Assembly (NCBI RefSeq): GCF_000518245.1
Contig: NZ_KI912402.1
Coordinates: 116,544 to 180,543, forward strand
DNA from: Brachyspira alvinipulli ATCC 51933
GTDB taxonomy: Bacteria; Spirochaetota; Brachyspiria; Brachyspirales; Brachyspiraceae
Direction of reading: 5' to 3'
DNA: 64,000 nt
Shown here: positions 3,624 to 33,101 of the stretch, one piece after another
How the letters are laid out: each line of letters starts with the position of its first letter
Numbering within the stretch: the first letter of the stretch is position 1
The notes under the pieces: generated by a model
Database searches by the model: none
Seen by the model: the letters and a program-made list of their open reading frames with translations, nothing else
Told to the model about the DNA's origin: nothing
Translations under genes and position numbers: made by a program

Positions 3624-4787
3624 ATGGAAGAATTAAACAGACAAAATAAAAAATATATTATACAAGATAAAAACGATTACTATTATAGCAAACATTCATT
3701 AAATTATTTTTTAGAAGAACTTGATAAACTTATAAAGAAAAATAATATAGAAATAGAAGAAGCAGATAAACTCATAATAAATGATCATCATAATTGTTCA
3801 GTATATACTTTTATAAGAGTATTAGAAAAATATTTAATAAGAATTAACTTTGAACAGTTTGTGCATCCAGACCCGGAAATACAAAAAGACTTATTGGGCT
3901 GGGATTATAAATGTTTATTAGAAAAGGATAAATTTCCAGAGATTTATGAAGAGTATCATAATGATAAATTTCCTATACTAGATGATGAGTTTTCAGAATT
4001 GCATGTGTATGTAGAAGATGATGGAATGTATGAACTATTAATTCCTTCTTGGCATTATGAATATGATGACGGCGAGTGCAGAGATTTTATAGAAAAAGAA
4101 GATGAAGAAGATTATAAAGAAAATAAAAAAGATAAAAAAGAAATGATTTCTGAAAAGTATAGAAAGAATGGATCAATATATTTTGAAACTAAAGAATTAG
4201 TTGATGAGTTTTTTGAAAGCGGGGAAGTTGATTCAAGAACTTGGTTTATGGAATGGGAAAGTGAAAATGAGAATGAAGCAATGAATTATTTTGAAGAAAG
4301 ATATGACAAACATTGGGAAGAAGAATACCAAAGAAAATTAGATAAATACAATATCACAGATGATGATGACCATATGAAAAGTTATATTATATACGACAAA
4401 GAAGATATTGATTATTATTTTGAAAATAGAGATTTATTTTCATTTCCATTTTTTATAACAGGATACAATGAATTATTTGAGCATTTTTATAAAAAGCTTA
4501 TGAAAGACAGGGAAGAAGTTAATAATTCTATAAATGATGATATAAAAGAGAAATGCGACAAACTATTATATGATTATATTTTGGGTTATAGTCCTAATCA
4601 TAGATTTGCTCCTAATAAAGCCCTTTATGTATTAAAAGAATATATAAAAGAAAATTACAAAGATAATTCCAAAGAGTATATTGATTTAGCTTTAAGATAC
4701 ATTATGAATTATACAAGACATTTAGACAGGGATAAACTTATAGAAAGATATTTCAAAGGTGATAAGAGATTTTTATATAAGCTGTAA
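3624..4787 (+). CDS. Acidic hypothetical protein
   Basis: 387 residues, not recognised. The protein is rich in Asp, Glu, Lys and Tyr with no signal peptide or membrane segment, so it is probably cytoplasmic. Very acidic and charged stretches lie around residues 150-200 (DGECRDFIEKEDEEDYKENK). The ATG at 3624 follows an AAAAGGAT ribosome site. It is on the same strand as the TPR gene at 4883, 95 bases upstream of it, so the two may be cotranscribed. No family assignment is offered. Confidence 0.7.
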   Translation: MEELNRQNKKYIIQDKNDYYYSKHSLNYFLEELDKLIKKNNIEIEEADKLIINDHHNCSVYTFIRVLEKYLIRINFEQFVHPDPEIQKDLLGWDYKCLLEKDKFPEIYEEYHNDKFPILDDEFSELHVYVEDDGMYELLIPSWHYEYDDGECRDFIEKEDEEDYKENKKDKKEMISEKYRKNGSIYFETKELVDEFFESGEVDSRTWFMEWESENENEAMNYFEERYDKHWEEEYQRKLDKYNITDDDDHMKSYIIYDKEDIDYYFENRDLFSFPFFITGYNELFEHFYKKLMKDREEVNNSINDDIKEKCDKLLYDYILGYSPNHRFAPNKALYVLKEYIKENYKDNSKEYIDLALRYIMNYTRHLDRDKLIERYFKGDKRFLYKL

Positions 4788-4882
4788 TTATTTATACTGA
4801 TTTATTATTAAAAAACCTCCCGTGAAGCCGTTTTTTGTACCTCTATATAATTAAAAAATAATAAAAATATAGGAGCTACACT

Positions 4883-7030
4883 ATGAAAAAATCATACACT
4901 TTAGAAGAAATTGAAAATATAATAAACAAAGAGTTTTCTTATGAACTTGATGAAACTGATTCAACTGAAGCAGATAACAAGTTAGATAATAATGGAAATG
5001 ATGAAGATTATCAAAACAATAATGATAATAATAATGAAAATATAATTGATCAAGTTATAGAAGTATTAAAAGAGTATATTAAAAAAGATAAAAATAATAC
5101 AAAAGCTTTAACTCTATTAGGAAGGGCATATTATTCTAATAGAAATAATAAAAAAGCAGAAAAGCAGTTTAGAAAAGTTTTGTTAATAAATCCTAATGAT
5201 GATAAAGCATTATACTATAAGGCAGCCAATTATATATATGATTTTAGAAGAAATGAAAACTATAATGAAGCATTAAAACTTATTAAAAAAGCTGTAGAAT
5301 TAAATGAAAATGATTCAGCATATTGGTATATTTTTGGATATATTAATTATAAAAATGAAAATTATTATGCGGCAATAGAGTATGCTGAAAAAGCAGTTAA
5401 GTTAAATAAAAGTTATGTTTTTGATTATGATAATTATTTAGAATATTATCTTACTGTGATAGGAGAATCATATTTTAAATTGGGTAAATATGATGAAGCA
5501 ATAGAAGTGTTTAAAGAAATAATAAAACTTCCTCGTCATGATCAAAGCGATTTTATGTATTTAGGATTATCATATTTTGCGAAAAAAGAATATGATAAGG
5601 CAATAGAAAATTATGAGAAGGTATTAGAAATTGATCCTTCTTGTGATTATATCGAAAATACTAGTGCAATAAATGCATTAGCTAAATCTTATATGGCTTT
5701 AGGAGAATATCAGAAAGGTATTGATGCATACAAAGAATATATTAAAAAATATGAGTGGCGTTCGATAAGAGATCTATATAATAAAGATATTGAAGACTAT
5801 AAATATTTGATAGAAGCATTTAATCAGCTTATAGAGGAAGAGCCTAATAATTTTAAATATTATGATGGATTAGAAACTATATATTCTTTTGATTTGCATA
5901 TATGTGATAAAGCAGCTAATGTACTTGAAAAATATTTACTGAATAATACTGATAAAATTAATGATAGTATTTATAGAACTCTAGCTTCTTTATATAATAG
6001 TATTTATAAATATGATAAAGCTATTGAAATGTGTAATAAATTTATGGATATTAATGATTTTGATAGTTATTATTATTCTCTTTTAGGACATATTTATCAA
6101 GAAATTAAAAATTATGATAAGGCTTTGGAGATGTACGAAAAATATGTGAATTATATGTTTGAAAACAAAGATAAAGGCAATGCAAATATTTATAGTAATA
6201 TAATAAAATTATTAGATTTGTATGATAAACTTTTAAAACATGATAAAAAATATTTGCTTATTGATAAAGCTGTTAATTATTATATTAATAAGAATGATTA
6301 TAAAGGATTATATAATTTATATTTGCATATAGGCGAAAAATATAAGGCTATTGAATATTATCAAAAATACATAAATTTAGATGATAATAAAAAATATGGG
6401 TATGATTTTACAGCTATTGCAGAGATTTATGAAAGTTTGGGAGAAAAGGAAAATGCAGAAGAATATTATAAAAAAGCAATAGAGATTTATGAAAATGAAA
6501 AAGATAAAAATTCTTGGGATTTAGAGAGTATAGGAGATTTATATAATTCTATAGGCAATAAAAACAAAGCTATTGAAACATATAAAAAAGCTATAAAAGT
6601 TGAAATAAAAAGTGCTAGTTGTATGTTCAGAAGAGAAAACAGATGGGAGAGAAAGGAATTTAAAGGTTATTATTCAAAGGAAATAGGCGATTTATATATG
6701 AAAATAGATAATAAAAATAAGGCATTAAAGTGCTATAAACATGCTGTTTCATTAGAACCTAATCGCGAAGAGTATTATATATCAATTGCAGAAGTTTATA
6801 ATGATTTTAATGAAAAAGAGTTAGCAAAAAAATATTATAAAAAGGCTATTGATATTCATAAAAAATATCTTGAAACGCATTCATACAGATGTGATATTAT
6901 AAAACGTATTGCTGAATTATATTTAAAAATTGATGATAAAGAAAATGCCAAAGAATGTTACAAAAAAGTTTTGGAAATTAATATTTATGATGATGAAGCT
7001 AAAGAGTATTTAGAAAAATTGAATATATAA
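4883..7030 (+). CDS. Large TPR-repeat protein
   Basis: 715 residues. After an acidic, Asn-rich linker at about residues 20-55, almost the whole chain is tetratricopeptide repeats of the form A..YY..G....A...Y.KA(I/L)E..P. About fifteen units can be picked out. There is no signal peptide, so it is probably a cytoplasmic scaffold. An AGGAGC ribosome site precedes the ATG. TPR proteins mediate protein-protein contacts; the partner cannot be read from the sequence. A similar protein is encoded at 34873-36864. Confidence 0.85.
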   Translation: MKKSYTLEEIENIINKEFSYELDETDSTEADNKLDNNGNDEDYQNNNDNNNENIIDQVIEVLKEYIKKDKNNTKALTLLGRAYYSNRNNKKAEKQFRKVLLINPNDDKALYYKAANYIYDFRRNENYNEALKLIKKAVELNENDSAYWYIFGYINYKNENYYAAIEYAEKAVKLNKSYVFDYDNYLEYYLTVIGESYFKLGKYDEAIEVFKEIIKLPRHDQSDFMYLGLSYFAKKEYDKAIENYEKVLEIDPSCDYIENTSAINALAKSYMALGEYQKGIDAYKEYIKKYEWRSIRDLYNKDIEDYKYLIEAFNQLIEEEPNNFKYYDGLETIYSFDLHICDKAANVLEKYLLNNTDKINDSIYRTLASLYNSIYKYDKAIEMCNKFMDINDFDSYYYSLLGHIYQEIKNYDKALEMYEKYVNYMFENKDKGNANIYSNIIKLLDLYDKLLKHDKKYLLIDKAVNYYINKNDYKGLYNLYLHIGEKYKAIEYYQKYINLDDNKKYGYDFTAIAEIYESLGEKENAEEYYKKAIEIYENEKDKNSWDLESIGDLYNSIGNKNKAIETYKKAIKVEIKSASCMFRRENRWERKEFKGYYSKEIGDLYMKIDNKNKALKCYKHAVSLEPNREEYYISIAEVYNDFNEKELAKKYYKKAIDIHKKYLETHSYRCDIIKRIAELYLKIDDKENAKECYKKVLEINIYDDEAKEYLEKLNI

Positions 7031-23559: not shown

Positions 23560-24117
23560 TTATAATATGTTTATATTTTGAAGCCAGTTTTTTATACTAT
23601 TTTCTGAACTATTAACGCTTCCTCCAGATATACTCAAACCTTCTAGTATAGTTGAATTAGGACATAATGAAGTTATATCAGTAACGCTTCTTCCCATTCT
23701 GCTTCCGCCATGAGTACATAAAGGAGCTATTTTTTTACCGCTGAAATCATGAGTTAATAATAATTGTTTTACTGCTTGTGGAATAGTACCCCACCAATTA
23801 GGGTAACATAATATTATAGTGTCATAGTTAGCTAAATTATTTATATTAGCACTCAATTTTGGTAAAAAATTATCATTTTGTTCTTTTCTTGCCTGATTTA
23901 CAGTGTCATTATAAGAACTTGGATATGCTTCAACAGTTTTTACTTCAAATATATCTGCTTTAGTAAGATTTTTTATCATATTTGCAGCTGTTCTAGTATT
24001 TCCTCCCCAAGAGAAATATACTATTAATGTTTTAGAAGTTTGAGCATTTAAACCTCCGATTAATAATGTGCTTGAAATAAGTAATGACATTAATATTGTT
24101 TTTATGATTTTTTTCAT
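23560..24117 (-). CDS. Exported flavodoxin-like protein
   Basis: 185 residues. Signal peptide to about residue 25 (LIGGLNAQ), then LIVYFSWGGNTRTAANMI, LCYPNWWGTIPQAV and APLCTHGGSRMGRSV. Near-duplicate of the copy at 19759-20298, but keeps the family WW. A ribosome site (complement of tcctcct at about 24125) precedes the ATG. It is separated from the gene at 24234 by 116 bases that could hold a second promoter. Confidence 0.88.
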   Translation of the reverse strand: MKKIIKTILMSLLISSTLLIGGLNAQTSKTLIVYFSWGGNTRTAANMIKNLTKADIFEVKTVEAYPSSYNDTVNQARKEQNDNFLPKLSANINNLANYDTIILCYPNWWGTIPQAVKQLLLTHDFSGKKIAPLCTHGGSRMGRSVTDITSLCPNSTILEGLSISGGSVNSSENSIKNWLQNINIL

Positions 24118-24233: not shown

Positions 24234-25070
24234 TTATTTTAGATTGTTAATTATAGCTATAGCATTCAATGTTCTTGGATAACCTATGTAAGGTATGCAT
24301 TGAGTTACAGCTTCTATTAACATATCTTTACTGTTTCCTATAGATATATTAGCACTTGCATGAGAAGTTGCCTGAGGCTCAGCTCCTCCTAAAGATACTA
24401 TCATTATGAAAGTTAATAACTCTCTCTCTTTCATATTAAGTCCCTTTCTTGTATAAAAATCTCCAAAACAATTAGCTGATAAGAAATTTTGAATATGTTT
24501 TTGATTTGCTGGAGCATTATTATGAGCATCTAATATTCTTGTACCAAATGTATTAGTTTGTATTTCAAGTCCTTTATCGAATCTAGTTTCTTCTGTAACT
24601 GTTGATTGAGATTCTATAGGAAGTGAAATATTTTTTTCTTTAAACACTTCATTTGCTTTTTCTAATGCAGCAAATACTCTAGGAAATCCTACATAAGGTG
24701 AACATTGATATAATGCTTCTTTTATCTCTATAGGACTAACTCCAATATTTAAAGCTGTTTCTACATGAGGTTTTATCATGTCAGTACCTTGTGATGCAGT
24801 TAAAGAAACTAATACTACAAGTTCTCTTAATTTAGGTTCCAATGTTCCATGATTATAAACTTCTCCATATAAGAAATTATTAAATATGCTTTCTAAATCT
24901 GGATCATTAGGTTTAGTTAGGCTTGCATCTCTTTTGAGTAATTCGTTATATTTGTTTTTTGCTTTTTCTGTCATAGTTAAATTTCCTCCTTTACTTTGTG
25001 AATTTGCTATGCATGAAAATACTATAACTAAGATAGATAAAGATAAAATAGTTTTTAAAGTTTTTTTCAT
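24234..25070 (-). CDS. Exported carboxymuconolactone decarboxylase-like protein
   Basis: 278 residues with two AhpD/CMD-like domains (about 55-125 and 190-275). Each has the KLREL or KERELLT start, the helical HVETALNIG or HASANISIG core and QC.PY.G.PR. The CxxC redox pair of true AhpD is absent, so peroxidase activity by that route is unlikely. The N-terminus MKKTLKTILSLSILVIVFSC looks like a lipoprotein signal, although the lipobox VFSC is not ideal. Family members are often linked to quinone or aldehyde stress genes. It follows the alcohol dehydrogenase by 28 bases. Confidence 0.85.
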   Translation of the reverse strand: MKKTLKTILSLSILVIVFSCIANSQSKGGNLTMTEKAKNKYNELLKRDASLTKPNDPDLESIFNNFLYGEVYNHGTLEPKLRELVVLVSLTASQGTDMIKPHVETALNIGVSPIEIKEALYQCSPYVGFPRVFAALEKANEVFKEKNISLPIESQSTVTEETRFDKGLEIQTNTFGTRILDAHNNAPANQKHIQNFLSANCFGDFYTRKGLNMKERELLTFIMIVSLGGAEPQATSHASANISIGNSKDMLIEAVTQCIPYIGYPRTLNAIAIINNLK

Positions 25071-25098: not shown

Positions 25099-26322
25099 TT
25101 ATTGATTATCTATAGTTTTCATATCTATTACATATCTGAATTTTACTTCACCGTTAATTACTTTATTGTATGCTTCTGTAATAGCCTGAGCATCAGCATT
25201 GATTATTTCAACATCTGGATATATGTTATTGGCTATAGAATAATCTAAAGCTTCTTGAGTTTCCTTCATTCCTCCTATTAAAGAACCAAATAATTTTCTG
25301 CTTCCATTTCCTAGTACTAAAGTCCCTACATTTACACTAGGCATATTTTCTATTGCAGGTATTCCTAAAATAGCCATTTCTCCGCCTCTTTTTAGCATAT
25401 TCATATACATTGAAATATCATAGTTTGCCGGTATTGTACTTATTATATAATCTAATGTATTATTTAAATTTGTAAGTTCATTAGCATTATTAACATTTAC
25501 ATATTTAACAGCTCCCATTTTCAAAGCGTCTTCTCTTTTTTCTTCTGTGATATCAAATACAGTAACTTCTGCTCCTAAATTAACAGCATATTTTACAGCT
25601 AAATGTCCTAATCCTCCGAAACCTGCTATTCCAATTTTATCGCCTTTAGATACATTCATAACTTTTATAGGAGAATATGTTGTTACTCCGGCACATAATA
25701 ATGGAGCAACTTTTTTAATATCTGCATTATCTGGTATTTTTACAGCAAATTTATCATATACTACTATATTATCAGAATATCCTCCTCTTGTTATTTCATT
25801 ATCATGGAATCTATCTGGGTTATCATAAGTTCCTACAAAAGAGGTTAAACAATATTGCTCCTGATTGTTCAGACAATTTTCACATTCTCCGCAGGAATTA
25901 ACCATACAGCCAACGCCTGCATAATCTCCTACTTTGAATTTAGTAACATTTTCTCCTACTTGAGTTACAATGCCTACTATTTCATGTCCTGGTACTATAG
26001 GATAATTTGGAGTTCCCCAATCACTTTTTGCTGAATGTATATCGCTATGGCATATTCCAGAGTATAATATATCTATTAATATATCGTTGCTTCCTACTGC
26101 ATGCCTTGTAAACTCATAAGGTTCAAACACTCCATTTGCTGAAAATGCAGCAAAACCTTTTGATGGTATTCTGCCTTCATAATTATTTGTAACATATACT
26201 TTATTATTTTGAATGTTTGTGTTTGAAGTATTACTTTCTTGTGTATTATTACTTTGATTATTGCAAGACAATATTAATACAAAAGAAATGATTAAAATAA
26301 AATTTTTTATATATTTTTTCAT
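25099..26322 (-). CDS. Zinc alcohol dehydrogenase with lipoprotein signal
   Basis: 407 residues. Residues 1-20 are a signal with lipobox LILSC, then an Asn/Ser/Thr linker to about residue 45. The rest is a full medium-chain dehydrogenase of the cinnamyl-alcohol/YahK type: catalytic zinc ligands in SGICHSD, GHEIVG and the later Cys, structural zinc CMVNSCGECENC, and the Rossmann motif GFGGLGHLAVKYA. An exported NAD(P)-dependent enzyme is odd because the cofactor is not expected in the periplasm. The signal is in frame and preceded by an AGGAG-type ribosome site, so it is probably real. It lies between the CMD gene and an aldo/keto reductase. Confidence 0.9.
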   Translation of the reverse strand: MKKYIKNFILIISFVLILSCNNQSNNTQESNTSNTNIQNNKVYVTNNYEGRIPSKGFAAFSANGVFEPYEFTRHAVGSNDILIDILYSGICHSDIHSAKSDWGTPNYPIVPGHEIVGIVTQVGENVTKFKVGDYAGVGCMVNSCGECENCLNNQEQYCLTSFVGTYDNPDRFHDNEITRGGYSDNIVVYDKFAVKIPDNADIKKVAPLLCAGVTTYSPIKVMNVSKGDKIGIAGFGGLGHLAVKYAVNLGAEVTVFDITEEKREDALKMGAVKYVNVNNANELTNLNNTLDYIISTIPANYDISMYMNMLKRGGEMAILGIPAIENMPSVNVGTLVLGNGSRKLFGSLIGGMKETQEALDYSIANNIYPDVEIINADAQAITEAYNKVINGEVKFRYVIDMKTIDNQ

Positions 26323-26341: not shown

Positions 26342-27187
26342 TTAATATTTCAATTTTAATAATTGCTTTATAAAGTCAGCGTCATCATTAAGAAATATTA
26401 TGTTTTTATTATTATCCAAAGTTTTTATGATATTCATGTCATTATCATCTAATGTGAAATCGAATATTTTAGAGTTTTCTATTATTCTTTCTTTGTTTAC
26501 ACTCTTTGGAATAATAGGTATATTTCTTTGAGTAAGCCACCTTAAAATAACTTGAGCTACAGTTTTATTATATTTTTTGCCTATACTTTTTAATATTTCA
26601 TTATTAAAAATATTATTAGTACCTTCTGCTAAAGGTCCCCAAGATTCTAATGTTATATTATATTCTTTCATTAAATCTTGCTCTTCCCATCTTTGAAAAA
26701 ATGGATGAGTTTCTATTTGATTAATTGCAGGTGTTATTTTACTATGTTCTGCAAAATCTATTAATCTATCTTTATAGAAGTTGCAGCAGCCTATGGCTCT
26801 TATATATCCAGCTTCATATAATTCTTCCATTGCCTTCCAAGCAGCATAATAATTACCAAAAGGCATATGAATCAAGTATAAATCTAAATAATCTAATCCT
26901 AATTTTTCCATAGATATTTGAAATGCTTTCTTTGCCTTATCATAGTCAGCATCCTGTATCCATAATTTAGTGGTAATAAACATTTCTTTTCTATTTATTC
27001 CGCTTTCTTTTATGGCATCTCCGACAGCTTTTTCATTTATATATATTGATGCTGTGTCTATATGTCTGTATCCTGCTTCAATGGCATAAAGACATGCTTT
27101 TTTGCATTCCTCATAATCTTCTACTCTGTATACTCCAAATCCTAGAATAGGCATTTCAACATTATTATTTAATTTTATAGTATTCAT
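26342..27187 (-). CDS. Aldo/keto reductase
   Basis: 281 residues, no signal peptide. Asp/Tyr in HIDTASIYINE, Lys in TTKLWIQ, His in YLIHMPFGNY; NADPH site near IPIIPKSVNKERI. Paralogue of 20332-21180, roughly 60% alike by eye. Expected to reduce carbonyl compounds in the cytoplasm. Nineteen bases separate it from the alcohol dehydrogenase downstream. Confidence 0.92.
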   Translation of the reverse strand: MNTIKLNNNVEMPILGFGVYRVEDYEECKKACLYAIEAGYRHIDTASIYINEKAVGDAIKESGINRKEMFITTKLWIQDADYDKAKKAFQISMEKLGLDYLDLYLIHMPFGNYYAAWKAMEELYEAGYIRAIGCCNFYKDRLIDFAEHSKITPAINQIETHPFFQRWEEQDLMKEYNITLESWGPLAEGTNNIFNNEILKSIGKKYNKTVAQVILRWLTQRNIPIIPKSVNKERIIENSKIFDFTLDDNDMNIIKTLDNNKNIIFLNDDADFIKQLLKLKY

Positions 27188-27214: not shown

Positions 27215-27643
27215 TCAATTGACTTTTTCAATATGTATATCAAAATCTCCTTTCATATTTGAAAGTTTTGATATATCTGATGCATTTTCAAATTTTCCTA
27301 AATAAATTAAATTATTTGAATATCTGAAATTTTTATAAAATATAGCAATGTTTCCCCAAGGAGCATAATAAGTTATATCTCCTGCTTTAGGATTTATTCC
27401 ATCTGGTTCATTTTATATATTTAGTTTTTTGTCTAAATAAAATATTTTTTCTGTGTTATTGAAATCTTCTGCTTTAACACTTAAAGGAAGTAATGATAAA
27501 AAATCATTTCCTGCTTTTGAATCTGTTATTACGGCATAGATTTCATTGCTGCAAAAAGTCAATTTTATTCTTGTGTTTTGAGCAAAAGCATTCATCGTAA
27601 ATAATCCTGTAAATAGTATGAAAGTTATAATAATCTTTTTCAT
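27215..27643 (-). pseudogene. Cyclophilin-like gene with in-frame stop
   Basis: The first 76 codons give a signal peptide (ending NAFAQ) and the start of a cyclophilin-like domain (SLLPLSVKAEDFNNTEKIFY). A TAA at 27413-27415 stops the frame after KKLNI. The same frame then continues for 65 codons with NEPDGINPKAGDITYYAPWG and NIAIFYKNF, the expected rest of this family, to a TGA at 27215-27217. A single nonsense codon therefore separates two good halves. It could be a recent pseudogene or a sequence error. The second half has its own conserved motifs intact, so decay is recent. Confidence 0.85.
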
Positions 27644-27660: not shown

Positions 27661-28179
27661 TTATTGATTTGTATAGCTGTAGTATTCTTCATCAGTAACA
27701 TGTTCCATCCAAGTAACACTGTTTCCATTTGAATCTCCTGTTATAGCAATATGCTTCATAGGTGAATTAGGAGAAGCTCCATGCCAATGCTTTATATTAG
27801 CTGGACAATATAAAGTATCACCAGCTCTGAATTCTTGTACAGTCTTTCCTTCTTCTTGAGTAAGTCCTATTCCTTCAATAACTATTAAATGCTGTCCTGC
27901 TGGGTGGGTATGCCAAGCACTTCTTGCTCCTGGCTGAAATGTAACATAAGCTACAGAAAATTTTGAAGTTTCATTTGGAGAAGTGATATATTCTACTTCA
28001 ACATCACCTGTAAAATAATCTGATGAGCCTTTTGATTTTTGTCCTTCTCCATTTTTCATTAAAATTGTATTTGTTGGTGCTGCAGTATATGCATATGTAT
28101 TAGCAGTATTATTTGTGTTATTTGAATTGCATGATATTGCTGCAATCAAAACAAATAAAATTAATAAAATATTTTTCAT
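27661..28179 (-). CDS. Cupin-domain lipoprotein
   Basis: 172 residues. Lipobox AISC at about residue 17, linker, then a cupin fold with metal ligands in WHTHPAGQHLIVIEG (His-x-His, later His) and KHWHGASP. Similar to small (R)-mandelonitrile lyase-like or carboxymuconolactone-cluster cupins, whose substrates are not settled. It is the first gene after the MerR-type promoter at 28221-28251 and so heads the minus-strand operon. The cyclophilin-like gene follows by 17 bases. Confidence 0.86.
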   Translation of the reverse strand: MKNILLILFVLIAAISCNSNNTNNTANTYAYTAAPTNTILMKNGEGQKSKGSSDYFTGDVEVEYITSPNETSKFSVAYVTFQPGARSAWHTHPAGQHLIVIEGIGLTQEEGKTVQEFRAGDTLYCPANIKHWHGASPNSPMKHIAITGDSNGNSVTWMEHVTDEEYYSYTNQ

Positions 28180-28220: not shown

Positions 28221-28251
28221 ATTGTATCATTGGAGTTGACTCCAATGTCAA
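28221..28251 (-). promoter_or_regulatory. MerR-type promoter with dyad, cupin operon
   Basis: On the minus strand: -35 TTGACA (complement of 28246-28251), spacer 19 bases, -10 TACAAT (complement of 28221-28226). The spacer contains a perfect dyad ATTGGAGTTGACTCCAAT at 28229-28246. A 19-base spacer with a dyad inside it is the hallmark of MerR-activated promoters. The same arrangement is at 29859-29889. Confidence 0.85.
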
Positions 28252-28261
28252 TAGTTAATTA

Positions 28262-28882
28262 TTATAATTTTAAATTTTTTAACCAATTTTCTATAATTTT
28301 TCTTGAATCAAGAATATCATTTCTTGATATTGTCAGACCATCTTCTATGATTTTGGCATTTGGTTCTAATTGCTTTATTTTTTCTATAGTTCCTGAAAAT
28401 CTGCTTCCTCCATGAGTTGAAAAAGGTATAATTATTTTATTGGAAAAATCATACTCCTCAAAAAAACTGTACATAGCCATAGGAAGATCATAATACCATA
28501 TAGGATAGCCTACAAAGACAATATCATACCCATTAAAATTATTTATTTTTTGGGATAGTTTAGGTAATTTTTTATTGGCGATTTCATTTTGTACAATTTC
28601 CAATAATTCCTGATGGGTATTTGGATATTTATTTTCTGTTTCTATTTTAAATAACTCTCCTTTTGTAAAATTTTTTATAGTTCCTGCAAAAAATTCAGTG
28701 TTTCCTATTATTCTGCTGTTATCATTTATTCTGCTTGCCCCTGTAACAGTATCTATTCCATCTCCTTCCGGAATTGAAAAGTAAGCTATCAATATTTTAC
28801 CTTTGTTTTGAATATAACTTTCCTGAGCATTGCATGAGGCACATAGTATTATTATAAAAATTAGATATTTAATTTTTTTCAT
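28262..28882 (-). CDS. Flavodoxin-like lipoprotein (exported)
   Basis: 206 residues. Lipobox LCASC near residue 17, then LIAYFSIPEGDGI, a long insertion after the first strand, FVGYPIWYYDLPMAM and IPFSTHGGSRFSGTI. Fifth exported flavodoxin of the region and the most divergent: Ser replaces the Cys in the usual FCTHG segment. It is the gene nearest the divergent tetR gene, from which it is separated by 218 bases containing two palindromes. The MerR-type promoter for the cupin operon lies just after its stop. Confidence 0.87.
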   Translation of the reverse strand: MKKIKYLIFIIILCASCNAQESYIQNKGKILIAYFSIPEGDGIDTVTGASRINDNSRIIGNTEFFAGTIKNFTKGELFKIETENKYPNTHQELLEIVQNEIANKKLPKLSQKINNFNGYDIVFVGYPIWYYDLPMAMYSFFEEYDFSNKIIIPFSTHGGSRFSGTIEKIKQLEPNAKIIEDGLTISRNDILDSRKIIENWLKNLKL

Positions 28883-28920
28883 TTTATTTCTCCTTTTTTT
28901 ACTTTTTATACTTGTTTTTT

Positions 28921-28932
28921 CTACTATAGTAG
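28921..28932. promoter_or_regulatory. Palindrome in the flavodoxin-tetR intergenic region
   Basis: Perfect 12-base palindrome CTACTATAGTAG, 38 bases upstream of the flavodoxin start. It is a candidate operator for the adjacent TetR-family protein. Confidence 0.45.
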
Positions 28933-29000
28933 ATTATTATATTAATGTATTTTATTACTCTCGTGTTTTTTATTCTTTTTTGTATATATTATACTTTTTA

Positions 29001-29015
29001 GTTGATTAAATCAAC
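29001..29015. promoter_or_regulatory. Palindromic candidate TetR operator
   Basis: Perfect 15-base palindrome GTTGATTAAATCAAC between divergent genes, about 85 bases before the TetR start. Length and symmetry suit a TetR dimer. It could serve both the flavodoxin and autoregulation. Confidence 0.5.
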
Positions 29016-29100
29016 GGTTTTAAAATATGTTAAAGTTGTTTATTACACATATTGCATTTTTGTGTGGTATAAATACTGAAAAAAAGGAGATTTTTTTATT

Positions 29101-29673
29101 ATGAATGGAGAAAAAAAAGAAGATTTAAGAGTTGTTAAAACAAAAGAAATCATAAAAAATACATTTAAAGATATGATTTCTGAAATGGATTATGAAGAAA
29201 TTACTATAAAAGAGCTTACAAATAGGGCTAAAATTAACAGGAAAACTTTTTATTTACATTATAAAAGTTTGGATGATCTGCTTTTAGAGCTGCAAAACAG
29301 TATAGCAGATAATTTTATTGAGAAGCAAGTATCATATACAAAATTGGAAGATATGAAGTATTTGATTAGATTGTTTTTTGAAAGTGCGAGTAAGAATATA
29401 CCTGTTTATGAGAAAATATTATGCAGCGGAAGTTATAGAAATATAAGCGATCAAATAAATAAAAAGATTATGACACATAGAAAAAAAACTAATAAAGGTG
29501 CTTTTTCTAATAATGATGCTTATGAAAATATTATATTTGCTTATTATGGTGCAAATTCAACAGTTATATATAGACAATGGGTTGCAGATGGTAAAAAATT
29601 GTCTTTAGATGAAGTAACAGATTTAGCTGTAAATTTAGTATGTTATGGATTGTCCAGTGTGATGAAAAAATAA
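29101..29673 (+). CDS. TetR-family transcriptional regulator
   Basis: 190 residues. N-terminal helix-turn-helix at about residues 15-60 (TIKELTNRAKINRKTFYLHYKS) and an all-helical ligand domain after it. The pattern resembles regulators with a Firmicutes-type C-terminal domain. A GGAG ribosome site precedes the ATG at 29101. It is divergent from the flavodoxin gene at 28262, so that gene and itself are likely targets. The inducer is unknown. Confidence 0.88.
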   Translation: MNGEKKEDLRVVKTKEIIKNTFKDMISEMDYEEITIKELTNRAKINRKTFYLHYKSLDDLLLELQNSIADNFIEKQVSYTKLEDMKYLIRLFFESASKNIPVYEKILCSGSYRNISDQINKKIMTHRKKTNKGAFSNNDAYENIIFAYYGANSTVIYRQWVADGKKLSLDEVTDLAVNLVCYGLSSVMKK

Positions 29674-29858
29674 TTCTTAATCATTTTACATATAGTTACA
29701 TTTTAGTTAACTTTAATTTAAATTGCTAGTTGTTATAAGTTGTATTAAAAAATATTTTCTGATGATATACCTTATTAACTTTTATTTTTTATTAGTATTT
29801 TATAATATTGATTTTATATAATTTTTTAACATTTTTAGAAAAAACTTTATAAAATCAT

Positions 29859-29889
29859 TTGACATTGGAGTGTACTCTAATGCTATAAT
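29859..29889 (+). promoter_or_regulatory. MerR-type promoter with dyad, flavoprotein-MATE operon
   Basis: -35 TTGACA at 29859-29864, 19-base spacer, -10 TATAAT at 29884-29889. The spacer carries ATTGGAGTGTACTCTAAT at 29864-29881, differing from the site at 28229 only in the centre and one arm base. It lies 42 bases before the flavoprotein gene. Confidence 0.85.
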
Positions 29890-29931: not shown

Positions 29932-30471
29932 ATGAGTAAAAAAGTATTGATAATATCATCTAGCCCAAGAAGAGGGGGGAATTCTGATACATTATGTGAT
30001 GAATTTTTAAAAGGTGCAAAGGAAGCAGGACATAATGCTGAAAAAATATTTTTAAAAGATAAGAAAATAGGTTATTGCGAAGACTGCGGAACTTGCTATA
30101 AAGATAATAAACCTTGTGTACAGAAAGATGATATGAAAGATATATTGGATAAAATGCTTGAAGCTGATGTAATAGTAATGGCTACGCCTGTATACTTCTA
30201 TACAATGAATGCTCAGATGAAAACGTTTATAGACAGATGCGTTACTAAATATTTAGAAATTAAGAATAAAGATTTTTATTTTATTGCAACTGCTGCTACA
30301 GAAAATAAAGATGAAATGCTTAGAACTATTGACGGATTCAGAGGATTTTTAGATTGTTTGGAAGATGTGAGAGAGAAAGGTTTTATATTAGCGCATAGCG
30401 TTTGGAATAAAGGAGAAATTAATGATAAAGAATTTATGAAGGAAGCATACAATATGGGATTGAATATTTGA
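29932..30471 (+). CDS. NAD(P)H-dependent FMN reductase / iron-sulfur flavoprotein-like
   Basis: 179 residues, cytoplasmic. The N-terminus LIISSSPRRGGNSD is the FMN phosphate loop. Cys residues in YCEDCGTCYKDNKPC form a compact cluster as in iron-sulfur flavoproteins. ATPVYFYTMNAQMKTFIDR is the conserved core of this family. It could reduce quinones or other electrophiles, or supply electrons to flavins. A ribosome site (GAGGTG) lies upstream. It is 46 bases before the MATE gene and is controlled by the MerR-type promoter at 29859. Confidence 0.9.
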   Translation: MSKKVLIISSSPRRGGNSDTLCDEFLKGAKEAGHNAEKIFLKDKKIGYCEDCGTCYKDNKPCVQKDDMKDILDKMLEADVIVMATPVYFYTMNAQMKTFIDRCVTKYLEIKNKDFYFIATAATENKDEMLRTIDGFRGFLDCLEDVREKGFILAHSVWNKGEINDKEFMKEAYNMGLNI

Positions 30472-30517: not shown

Positions 30518-31888
30518 GTGAGCGATATAAGTTATTCGGATGTTAATAAAATAAAAACTAATTACATGTTTTCTAATAAATATCTTATGAAGTTATTTAT
30601 TCCGCTTATTATAGAGGTGTTTTTAGAATATTTAGTTGGGCTTATAGATTCTATAATGGTTGCTAGTGTAGGGGAGTCTGCAGTATCTGCTGTATTTTTA
30701 GTAGATTTTGTAATAGCATTTCTTATAAGTATATTTGCTGCTATTGCTACAGGAGGTGCTGTTGCAAGCGGTCAGCATATAGGTGCTAAAAATATAGAAA
30801 AAGCAGATGACTCTATTAATCAGCTTATAAGATTTTTATTATTGTTTTCTTTAGTGATAACATTAATTATATATTTATTTAAAGATGCTATATTTGGAGC
30901 ATTATTTGGAAGCATTACAGATGAAGTTAGAAATGAAGCAAATATTTATATGCTTATAGTTGCAGCTTCAATACCGTTTTTAGCTGTTTATAATGGCGGA
31001 GCTTCAATGTTTAGAACTATAGGAAATTCAAAAATATCAATGAAGATTATGATATCTATGAATATATTAAATGTTGTAGGAAACGCTATTTTAATTTATA
31101 TATTTAAAATGGGTATAGCAGGAGCAGCAATATCTACATTAGTAAGCAGAATAGGTTCGGCTTTAATAATTATAATTTTGGGACTTAATAAAAAAAATCT
31201 TATATATATCAAAAATAAAATAATGTATAAGATGGATTTAAACACAATAAAAAGAATATTATCAGTAGGTATTCCTTATGGTATAGAAAATGGAATGTTT
31301 TATTTGGGAAGATTATTGATACTTAGTTTAGTATCCACATTTGGAACTGCATCAATAGCGGCAAATTCTGTTTCTACTATTATAGCTAGTTTTGAAGTTT
31401 TACCTGGTATGGCTATAGGTTTGGGACTTACTACAATTATATCTCAATGTGTAGGTGCTAGTGATTATAATCAAACTAAATATTATACAAAAAAAATTAT
31501 AACTATTATTTATGTATCTCAAACTATAACAAGTATTATAATATTGTCTGTTTTGCCTATAATACTTAACATTTATAATTTATCAGCGGAAGCAACATCA
31601 TACACTTATAAACTGTCTTGGTATCATGCTATTATGATGATTATATGGCCTTTGGGATATTCTCTTCCTGTGGTATTCAGAGCTTCAGGAGATGCAAAAT
31701 TTCCTATGGTAGTAGCATCGGCATCAATGGTATTATGCAGGATAGTATTGGCTTATGTATTTGCCTTATATTTTCAAATGGGTATGGTTGGTACTTGGAT
31801 AGCTATGTTTGTTGATTGGATAGTAAAGGCTATAATATTTACATTTAGATATTTAAGCGGTAAATGGATAAAGTTTCAATATAGTTAA
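30518..31888 (+). CDS. MATE-family efflux transporter
   Basis: 456 residues, twelve membrane helices, two related halves as in MATE exporters, which use sodium or proton gradients to expel drugs or metabolites. Starts at GTG 30518 after GAGGATAGGAAA. Motifs include the N-terminal IDSIMVASVGESAVSAV and the symmetric second-half GLGLTTIISQCVGA. In an operon with the flavoprotein, so it may export the compound that is reduced or conjugated by the cluster. Confidence 0.9.
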   Translation: MSDISYSDVNKIKTNYMFSNKYLMKLFIPLIIEVFLEYLVGLIDSIMVASVGESAVSAVFLVDFVIAFLISIFAAIATGGAVASGQHIGAKNIEKADDSINQLIRFLLLFSLVITLIIYLFKDAIFGALFGSITDEVRNEANIYMLIVAASIPFLAVYNGGASMFRTIGNSKISMKIMISMNILNVVGNAILIYIFKMGIAGAAISTLVSRIGSALIIIILGLNKKNLIYIKNKIMYKMDLNTIKRILSVGIPYGIENGMFYLGRLLILSLVSTFGTASIAANSVSTIIASFEVLPGMAIGLGLTTIISQCVGASDYNQTKYYTKKIITIIYVSQTITSIIILSVLPIILNIYNLSAEATSYTYKLSWYHAIMMIIWPLGYSLPVVFRASGDAKFPMVVASASMVLCRIVLAYVFALYFQMGMVGTWIAMFVDWIVKAIIFTFRYLSGKWIKFQYS

Positions 31889-31960: not shown

Positions 31961-32565
31961 CTATTATTAATTAAAGCTAAAACAATAGACTTGTTTCAAA
32001 ACTATTTTTATGATATTTAAATAATTTCAATATAGTTTATAGTGGTATTTGCTCAAGATATGTTGAGTACGAAGTACACATTGGGTGTAGGTAACCAAAC
32101 TTCTAAACATATAGAGTTAAAATACCTGCGTTTTTGCGAAGCTGCCGACGAAGTCCACCTGCGGTGGCGGCAGCAACTTTGACGAAGTCTGCAGAGCGTG
32201 TGTGACAAAAAAGTTGATAACATATATATACAGATATTAGCAAAGTATATTTGTTTCACTATATACTAAAAATTTTTAATTTTGTCAAAATTTAGATTTT
32301 TAATTTTATTGTTTGTGGTGGCTTTGCCCCCACACCCCTAGTTCTTTTGCGACCGAAGGAAGTACCTTTAGGTATGACCAAAAGAACCAAAAAGACTGCA
32401 TTTTTAACCTAAATTTTAGGTATTACCACACATTTAATACTTATTGTAATAATATAAGGTTGTAGCTCTTGCACTTTTTGCAACTTTTTGCAGCGGGAAA
32501 AAGTTGAGTAAAAAACTTATTATATATTTGAAAACTTAAAAATTTTCAGTATAAAATAAAAAAAT

Positions 32566-32645: not shown

Positions 32646-32996
32646 TTAATTGAAAAAATCTTTTTCCTCTAATTTTTTATTTAATTTTTCTAATTTTATT
32701 TTTATCTCATTAAAATGCTTATGCATTAAATCTCTTTCATTTATTAGTATTGATTTTCTTTCGTTTATGGTATTTTTTCCTTTTTTTGAAAGTTTAATAT
32801 ACTTTATTATGGAGTCTATTGATATGCCTAAATCACGCATTGACTTTGAGAATTCTATGCATTTTAAATTATATTCATTGTAGTTTCTTATTCCGCTTTT
32901 GCTTCTGCCTATTTCAGGTATTACACCTATTTTTTCATAATATCTTAAAGTGTCTTTTGATAAACCTGTTAATTCGCTTACTTCTGCTATAGTCAT
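32646..32996 (-). CDS. MerR-family transcriptional regulator
   Basis: About 116 residues. I place the start at the ATG 32994-32996, six bases after AGGGAGG; an upstream in-frame start would add an unlikely leader. The N-terminus MTIAEVSELTGLSKDTLRYYEKIGVIPE is the MerR helix-turn-helix, followed by the second winged part and a coiled coil (ERDLMHKHFNEIKIKLEKL). It lacks the usual metal-binding Cys residues, so it is probably of the AdhR/NmlR-like small-molecule or electrophile class. The two 19-base-spacer promoters with a TTGGAGT dyad at 28221 and 29859 are the obvious targets. Divergent from the LysR gene. Confidence 0.9.
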   Translation of the reverse strand: MTIAEVSELTGLSKDTLRYYEKIGVIPEIGRSKSGIRNYNEYNLKCIEFSKSMRDLGISIDSIIKYIKLSKKGKNTINERKSILINERDLMHKHFNEIKIKLEKLNKKLEEKDFFN

Positions 32997-33061: not shown

Positions 33062-33101
33062 AATACTTATATATTATAATTAGTTATAATATATAAGTAT
33101 T
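33062..33101. promoter_or_regulatory. 18-base-arm perfect dyad between MerR and LysR genes
   Basis: AATACTTATATATTATAA and its exact reverse complement are separated by TTAG, in the divergent intergenic region. There is no U-run beyond it, so it is an operator or a hairpin in both leaders. Its position suits binding by the LysR or MerR regulator. Confidence 0.75.

Follow-up and report, generated by a model that had tools for sequence, protein, structure and literature searches.

Gene organization of the locus

The window, i.e., the whole 64-kb stretch of Brachyspira DNA analyzed here, contains two promoter-like sites (hereafter boxes), one ahead of a probable cupin operon on the minus strand and one ahead of an FMN reductase-MATE operon on the plus strand. 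The features of this region were assigned as follows:

23560 to 24117, minus strand: flavodoxin-like protein at the end of the probable cupin operon (open reading frame found in the same place in relatives)
24234 to 25070, minus strand: carboxymuconolactone decarboxylase (CMD)-family protein (PF02627, in two stretches)
25099 to 26322, minus strand: zinc alcohol dehydrogenase, Ahr-like (PF08240/PF00107)
26342 to 27187, minus strand: aldo/keto reductase, DkgA-like (PF00248; NF008598 below cut-off)
27413 to 27643, minus strand: cyclophilin-like gene truncated by an in-frame stop (PF18050)
27661 to 28179, minus strand: cupin protein, encoded first after the minus-strand box (Cupin_2 in Pfam; above cut-off for NCBIfam NF049940, (R)-mandelonitrile lyase)
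28221 to 28251, minus strand: putative NmlR-type box promoter of the cupin operon, dyad ATTGGAGTCAACTCCAAT, TTGACA-19-TACAAT, conserved across 13 genomes
28262 to 28882, minus strand: flavodoxin, upstream of the cupin box (PF12682)
29101 to 29673, plus strand: TetR-family regulator between the two box promoters (PF00440)
29859 to 29889, plus strand: putative NmlR-type box promoter of the FMN reductase-MATE operon, dyad ATTGGAGTGTACTCTAAT, TTGACA-19-TATAAT, conserved across 13 genomes
29932 to 30471, plus strand: NADPH-dependent FMN reductase-type flavoprotein, encoded first after the plus-strand box (PF03358)
30518 to 31888, plus strand: MATE efflux transporter (PF01554; TIGR00797 above cut-off)
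32646 to 32996, minus strand: MerR-A, an NmlR-clade MerR paralogue carrying the replacements W46C and C52S (only PF13411 match in the window)

The cupin gene starts 42 bp from the -10 end of its box. In the window genome, MerR-A is separated from the cupin box by the flavodoxin gene, the TetR gene and the FMN reductase-MATE operon, while in G003, G004, G005, G008, G022, G023 and G024 it directly adjoins that box.

Three further observations were made at this locus. The cyclophilin-like frame remains homologous past its in-frame stop, to about 27215, and the stop therefore represents a recent nonsense change. A G+C-richer, repeat-like non-coding stretch (about 32120-32500) separates the MATE and MerR-A genes. 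Finally, a perfect 18-bp inverted repeat with a 4-bp loop (AATACTTATATATTATAA/TTATAATATATAAGTATT, 33062-33101) was found between the divergent MerR-A and LysR genes, where it is a possible LysR operator.

Architecture and conservation of the two promoters

An earlier note on this DNA had described two matched promoters at 28221-28251 and 29859-29889, each with TTGACA and a TATAAT-like box 19 bp apart and a dyad in the spacer, and both were found exactly so. The cupin-operon box reads TTGACA TTGGAGTCAACTCCAATGA TACAAT on the minus strand (28251 to 28221) and the FMN reductase-MATE box reads TTGACA TTGGAGTGTACTCTAATGC TATAAT on the plus strand (29859 to 29889), with a 19-bp spacer in each. The two 31-bp sites share a common plan, namely TTGACA, a 19-bp spacer, the dyad ATTGGAGT-NN-ACTCYAAT and TA(T/C)AAT, in which the dyad and the -35 box overlap by one base, the outermost A of the former doubling as the final A of the latter. 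MerR-family activators are described as sitting between over-spaced promoter boxes and distorting the DNA when triggered (PMC9909328; PMC8113463). The geometry expected of such promoters, with -35 and -10 boxes 19-20 bp apart and a dyad between them, was present at both window sites, as the earlier note had also recognized.

Within the 64-kb window, TTGACATTGGAGTNNACTCYAAT had two exact matches; allowing up to three mismatches gave three matches, the third being the palindrome read backwards. Across 13 genomes, the 31 bp of the cupin box were 88% identical compared to 52% in the flanks (60 bp before the site), and the corresponding values for the FMN reductase/MATE box were 94% and 59%. We regard this identity between genomes, relative to the flanks, as a phylogenetic footprint of both sites.

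Box promoters in the genome and across the genus

The source genome (3.42 Mb) was searched for the dyad within a 19-base spacer, as proposed earlier, allowing up to three mismatches and employing the reversed pattern as a control. Six box promoters were detected genome-wide and none with the reversed pattern. In addition to the window pair, these are:

C1:256109, about 110 kb from the window pair: box preceding an aldo/keto reductase-flavodoxin-cupin operon
C1:257049, about 110 kb from the window pair: box preceding a second MerR gene, MerR-B
C4:237981: box preceding an MFS transporter gene
C7:174497: box preceding a Zn alcohol dehydrogenase gene

By itself, the dyad was not enriched genome-wide, with 117/107 matches at two mismatches vs. 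140/136 in the control, and for this reason no looser regulon is claimed. The other dyads with zero or one mismatch that were checked lacked both hexamers at 19-bp spacing, and several were located within open reading frames; a dyad without mismatches at C6:15017 was discarded, being inside an open reading frame without promoter boxes. Judged from these sequences, the distinctive feature is the placement of the dyad inside a 19-bp promoter and not the dyad alone.

Across the genus, 132 boxes were found in 24 of 26 Brachyspira genomes, and none with the reversed pattern. The surroundings were read for 122 of these sites, all of which had 19 bp as the best-fitting spacer, having been preselected by similarity to the consensus. 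The first gene 3' of the box was most often MerR-B (22 sites), followed by AKR-B4 (17), cupin (13), two Zn-ADH classes (12 and 12), FMN reductase (11), MATE (5), AKR-W (5) and a few others. Box-to-gene distances were mostly 10-60 bp, ahead of oxidoreductase and pump genes. With two Zn-ADH classes and several aldo/keto reductases (AKRs) behind the boxes, the predicted regulation has the composition of an NmlR/AdhR regulon. A 184-186-amino-acid open reading frame also came first at 10 of the 122 sites, and the two copies scanned are hexapeptide acetyltransferases. Such hexapeptide-repeat acetyltransferases recur behind boxes in relatives (L129 195-749, L114 12551-13108 and others) and follow none of the six boxes of the window genome.

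Whole-genome searches of G017 and G019 detected no box, no MerR-A and no MerR-B. G017 retains an unrelated PF13411 protein, and G019 retains an ADH gene (80% identity), upstream of which the box is gone, the best match there having 13 mismatches. In G002, a third, more distant MerR (L080 4177-4554, 45% identity to MerR-B) adjoins a 1059-amino-acid open reading frame, and variant boxes (TTGACTTTAAAGTATGCTTTAATG and TTGACTTTCGAGTATACTTTAATG, 3986-4016) are located ahead of both. Among the papers listed for Brachyspira and MerR, none dealt with this regulon by title or abstract, and verbatim literature searches with the operator strings returned nothing relevant.

MerR-B as candidate regulator of the boxes

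The MerR gene at 32646-32996, termed MerR-A here, had been described as the only one in the window and as being of a Cys-poor, electrophile-sensing type. It is indeed the sole PF13411 match in the window, but the genome also encodes the paralogue MerR-B (C1:256629-257024), about 110 kb away and outside the window. Of six PF13411 proteins in the genome, only these two are short and NmlR-like, the remaining four being longer with weaker matches. NmlR was the best NCBIfam model for both MerR-B (147.6 bits) and MerR-A (120.1 bits), although neither reached its curated cut-off (NF041849, 175 bits); the next-best MerR subfamily model for MerR-B was CueR, with 70.4 bits. MerR-B is hence treated as an NmlR-clade relative and is not called an NmlR equivalog.

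The two paralogues differ in their association with the boxes. MerR-B carries a box in its own promoter in at least 20 genomes, compared to none of 16 for MerR-A. Further, whole-genome searches of four near-complete genomes (G010, G013, G015 and G016) detected MerR-B and no MerR-A; these genomes nevertheless keep window-type boxes, ahead of cupin and MATE in G015 and of FMN reductase in the other three. They also differ at the cysteine required for the response of AdhR (PMC4776306, PMC8879981). C52 is present in MerR-B of this genome, in 17 of 22 Brachyspira MerR-B copies (Tyr in the other five) and in 75 of 75 relatives outside Brachyspira. In all 16 MerR-A copies, position 52 is Ser and position 46 is Cys rather than Trp. 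Thus, MerR-A does belong to the NmlR clade, in line with the electrophile-sensing type proposed for it, but lacks the residue needed for the electrophile response (PMC4776306).

MerR-B is the better candidate because of the box in its own promoter, the presence of boxes in genomes without MerR-A, its C52, and the joint absence of MerR and boxes from G017 and G019, a co-occurrence that represents few independent losses; it is most likely the main regulator of the boxes. G023 (85% complete) has boxes with MerR-A only. Two aberrant MerR-B copies were noted. In G001 (L076 4492-4884), a premature TGA occupies codon 57, a conserved Gly, with six boxes intact. Either an error in the sequence or recent loss of the gene may account for this TGA; selenocysteine was rejected as an explanation, as the TGA replaces glycine 57 and not the cysteine. 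In G011 (L110 about 4847-5240), MerR-B is a frameshifted pseudogene with a box still in front, and one box is left in the genome.

Divergence of MerR-A and the sensor residues

In the tree, MerR-A was nested with the Brachyspira MerR-B copies, on a branch of 1.22 substitutions per site arising from within them, the exact point of attachment being weakly supported. Among MerR-A copies, dN/dS was about 0.10, as for MerR-B, which indicates purifying selection, and we consider MerR-A a fast-diverged duplicate and not debris. Its fixed changes cluster near the sensing region (positions 43, 45, 46 (W to C), 52 (C to S), 55, 56 and 58). The wing (residues 31-39) is essentially as in MerR-B, and residue 14 of the recognition helix has changed from A/T to K. 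In 11 of the 16 genomes with MerR-A, 17-60 bp separate its stop codon from a box. Given purifying selection, the kept wing and this proximity, MerR-A plausibly participates in the system, be it as a competitor, a partner or an additional sensor.

The MerR-B copies with Tyr52 are those of G006, G008, G014, G022 and G025, in which the boxes are kept and C119 is present, and in the genomes of this clade neither paralogue has the canonical cysteine. Since the boxes persist in these five genomes, C52 cannot be the sole sensor across the genus.

Operator register in NmlR-clade relatives

At NmlR-clade loci outside Brachyspira, 45 GAGT-NN-ACTC dyads were found compared to one in the control, most of them in a 19-bp spacer, and the loci with this enrichment belong to Bacillota, Elusimicrobiota and others. 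The common form in these relatives is TTGACTTGGAGTTAACTCCAAG, the centre of which is located 7 bp behind the -35 box, vs. 8 bp in the Brachyspira boxes. A register test of the non-Brachyspira loci at the Brachyspira offset returned no sites (with other offsets allowed, 8/19 register), and a search of 715 kb of Brachyspira loci detected no box in the 7-bp register. The latter is the fairer test, because choosing the Brachyspira sites for their resemblance to a Brachyspira consensus biases the collection towards one register. These comparisons suggest that the operator register is shifted by 1 bp in Brachyspira relative to other NmlR-clade boxes.

Proposed mechanism and alternative explanations

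From the sites, their conservation, the associated genes, the two paralogues with their residues and the co-occurrence, we infer binding, an inducer, a role for C52, an activation mechanism and a role for MerR-A. Both sites probably serve as operator-promoters in an NmlR/AdhR-clade MerR regulon that spans the genus. MerR-B would drive this regulon, and MerR-A would bind the same boxes, either modifying the response or acting as a second sensor. A MerR dimer would occupy the dyad; the -35 and -10 boxes on either side, 19 bp apart, would be too distant and out of phase for RNA polymerase, and the resting dimer would keep the promoter weakly repressed. Modification of C52 by a reactive carbonyl or electrophile would then twist the dimer and kink the DNA, allowing transcription to start. 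The likeliest signal, judged from the box-linked genes and the clade, is a reactive carbonyl or other electrophile. The output would be a detoxification set of aldo/keto reductases, Zn-alcohol dehydrogenases, flavoproteins, the cupin, the CMD protein and MATE/MFS efflux pumps, and MerR-B would also control its own gene. MerR-A, as a diverged duplicate acting on the same boxes, may be a constitutive repressor or second sensor, a modifier's role being proposed because it has lost C52.

The previous proposal of one regulator and one stress regulon fits these data in part. The regulon is supported by boxes shared genus-wide, by the stress-type detoxification and pump genes behind them, in more than two operons, and by the same box beside NmlR/AdhR-clade MerR genes. 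However, in naming MerR-A that proposal probably picked the wrong paralogue, or just one of two regulators.

A refinement of this explanation, overlapping with it in probability and with somewhat less than an even chance, is that both paralogues share the boxes and the C52-less MerR-A serves as a built-in competitor (brake) or as a heterodimer partner of MerR-B. The origin of MerR-A from MerR-B within Brachyspira, its long branch followed by constancy, and a DNA wing that was kept while the sensor surroundings changed would all suit such a pair. On the other hand, it presupposes binding of MerR-A to the box, the specificity of which K14 could alter, and the Tyr52 clade fits poorly to a simple sensor/brake pair. 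More tentatively, MerR-A may have lost its sensor cysteine and kept its wing to become a dedicated brake or heterodimer partner, in which case the one clade with both cysteines lost would imply new sensing chemistry in the NmlR clade (C46, C119), combined with a dyad displaced by 1 bp from that of other NmlR-clade boxes.

A leading role of MerR-A at both sites, as first proposed, is unlikely. The location of MerR-A in the window genome, 2.8 kb away from the MATE box, its closeness to a box in most MerR-A genomes (11 of 16), its wing and its low dN/dS would be compatible with such a role, but near-complete genomes without MerR-A still carry boxes, its own promoter has none in 16 genomes, and both C52 and the original residue 14 have been replaced. 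It is far less credible still that the boxes are operators of another family, e.g., of the neighbouring LysR or TetR regulators, with an incidental MerR linkage: a LysR gene often accompanies the box loci and the TetR gene lies between the two window sites, but boxes are also present where neither gene occurs (e.g., ADH7, MFS, the MerR-B promoter). In addition, a dyad centred in a 19-bp spacer is the geometry of MerR sites, and NmlR-clade genes of other phyla have this dyad next to them. Finally, a chance or repeat-derived likeness of the two promoters, for which the A+T-rich genome and the chance-level occurrence of sigma-70-like hexamer pairs without the dyad (83 vs. 79) might speak, is refuted by dinucleotide shuffling (0.01 expected for the full pattern in the window), by the genus-wide control (132 vs. 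0) and by conservation relative to the flanks.

With the MerR-B-driven regulon as the preferred explanation, two look-alike promoters become part of a defined, predicted regulon of about six operons, which may govern carbonyl/redox stress and efflux in a genus of anaerobic gut spirochaetes that includes animal pathogens. It would also offer a natural experiment on MerR sensors, in which a sensor gene was duplicated, the sensing cysteine disappeared, boxes were lost together with genes and the operator moved by 1 bp.

Comparison with known systems

AdhR (YraB) of Bacillus subtilis, also of the NmlR clade, is a MerR-family activator with a single conserved Cys52, like Brachyspira MerR-B, and methylglyoxal and formaldehyde induce its regulon, among the members of which are an alcohol dehydrogenase and a protein of the carboxymuconolactone decarboxylase family (PMC4776306). 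In comparison, the predicted Brachyspira set is larger (AKRs, cupin, flavoproteins, MATE/MFS pumps) and spread over the chromosome, and Brachyspira has a second, C52-less paralogue. The Brachyspira system would be an NmlR/AdhR-clade regulon distinguished by a paralogue that arose by duplication and lacks the cysteine, and by the altered register of its operators.

NmlR of Haemophilus influenzae and Neisseria (adhC-estD; structures 5D8C, 5D90 and 5E01) belongs to the same clade as MerR-B, the C52 of which aligns with Cys54 of H. influenzae NmlR. NmlR activation, with a dyad in the spacer and DNA distortion (PMC9909328), resembles what the Brachyspira boxes suggest, but the adhC-estD pair was not seen beside these boxes and the Brachyspira proteins fall below the NmlR equivalog cut-off. 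The closest solved sequence is the Listeria monocytogenes MerR-family protein 3GP4 (139.7 bits), which, compared by sequence and tree, lies near the Brachyspira branch and has Gln where NmlR has Cys.

Lastly, the mer promoter controlled by MerR (Tn501/Tn21) differs in its mercury sensor and its dyad. It nonetheless shares with the Brachyspira boxes a 19-bp spacer and a dyad centre 8 bp from the -35 box, a placement reported for MerR-type rather than CueR-type sites (PMC5045206); the other NmlR-clade boxes are centred at 7 bp.
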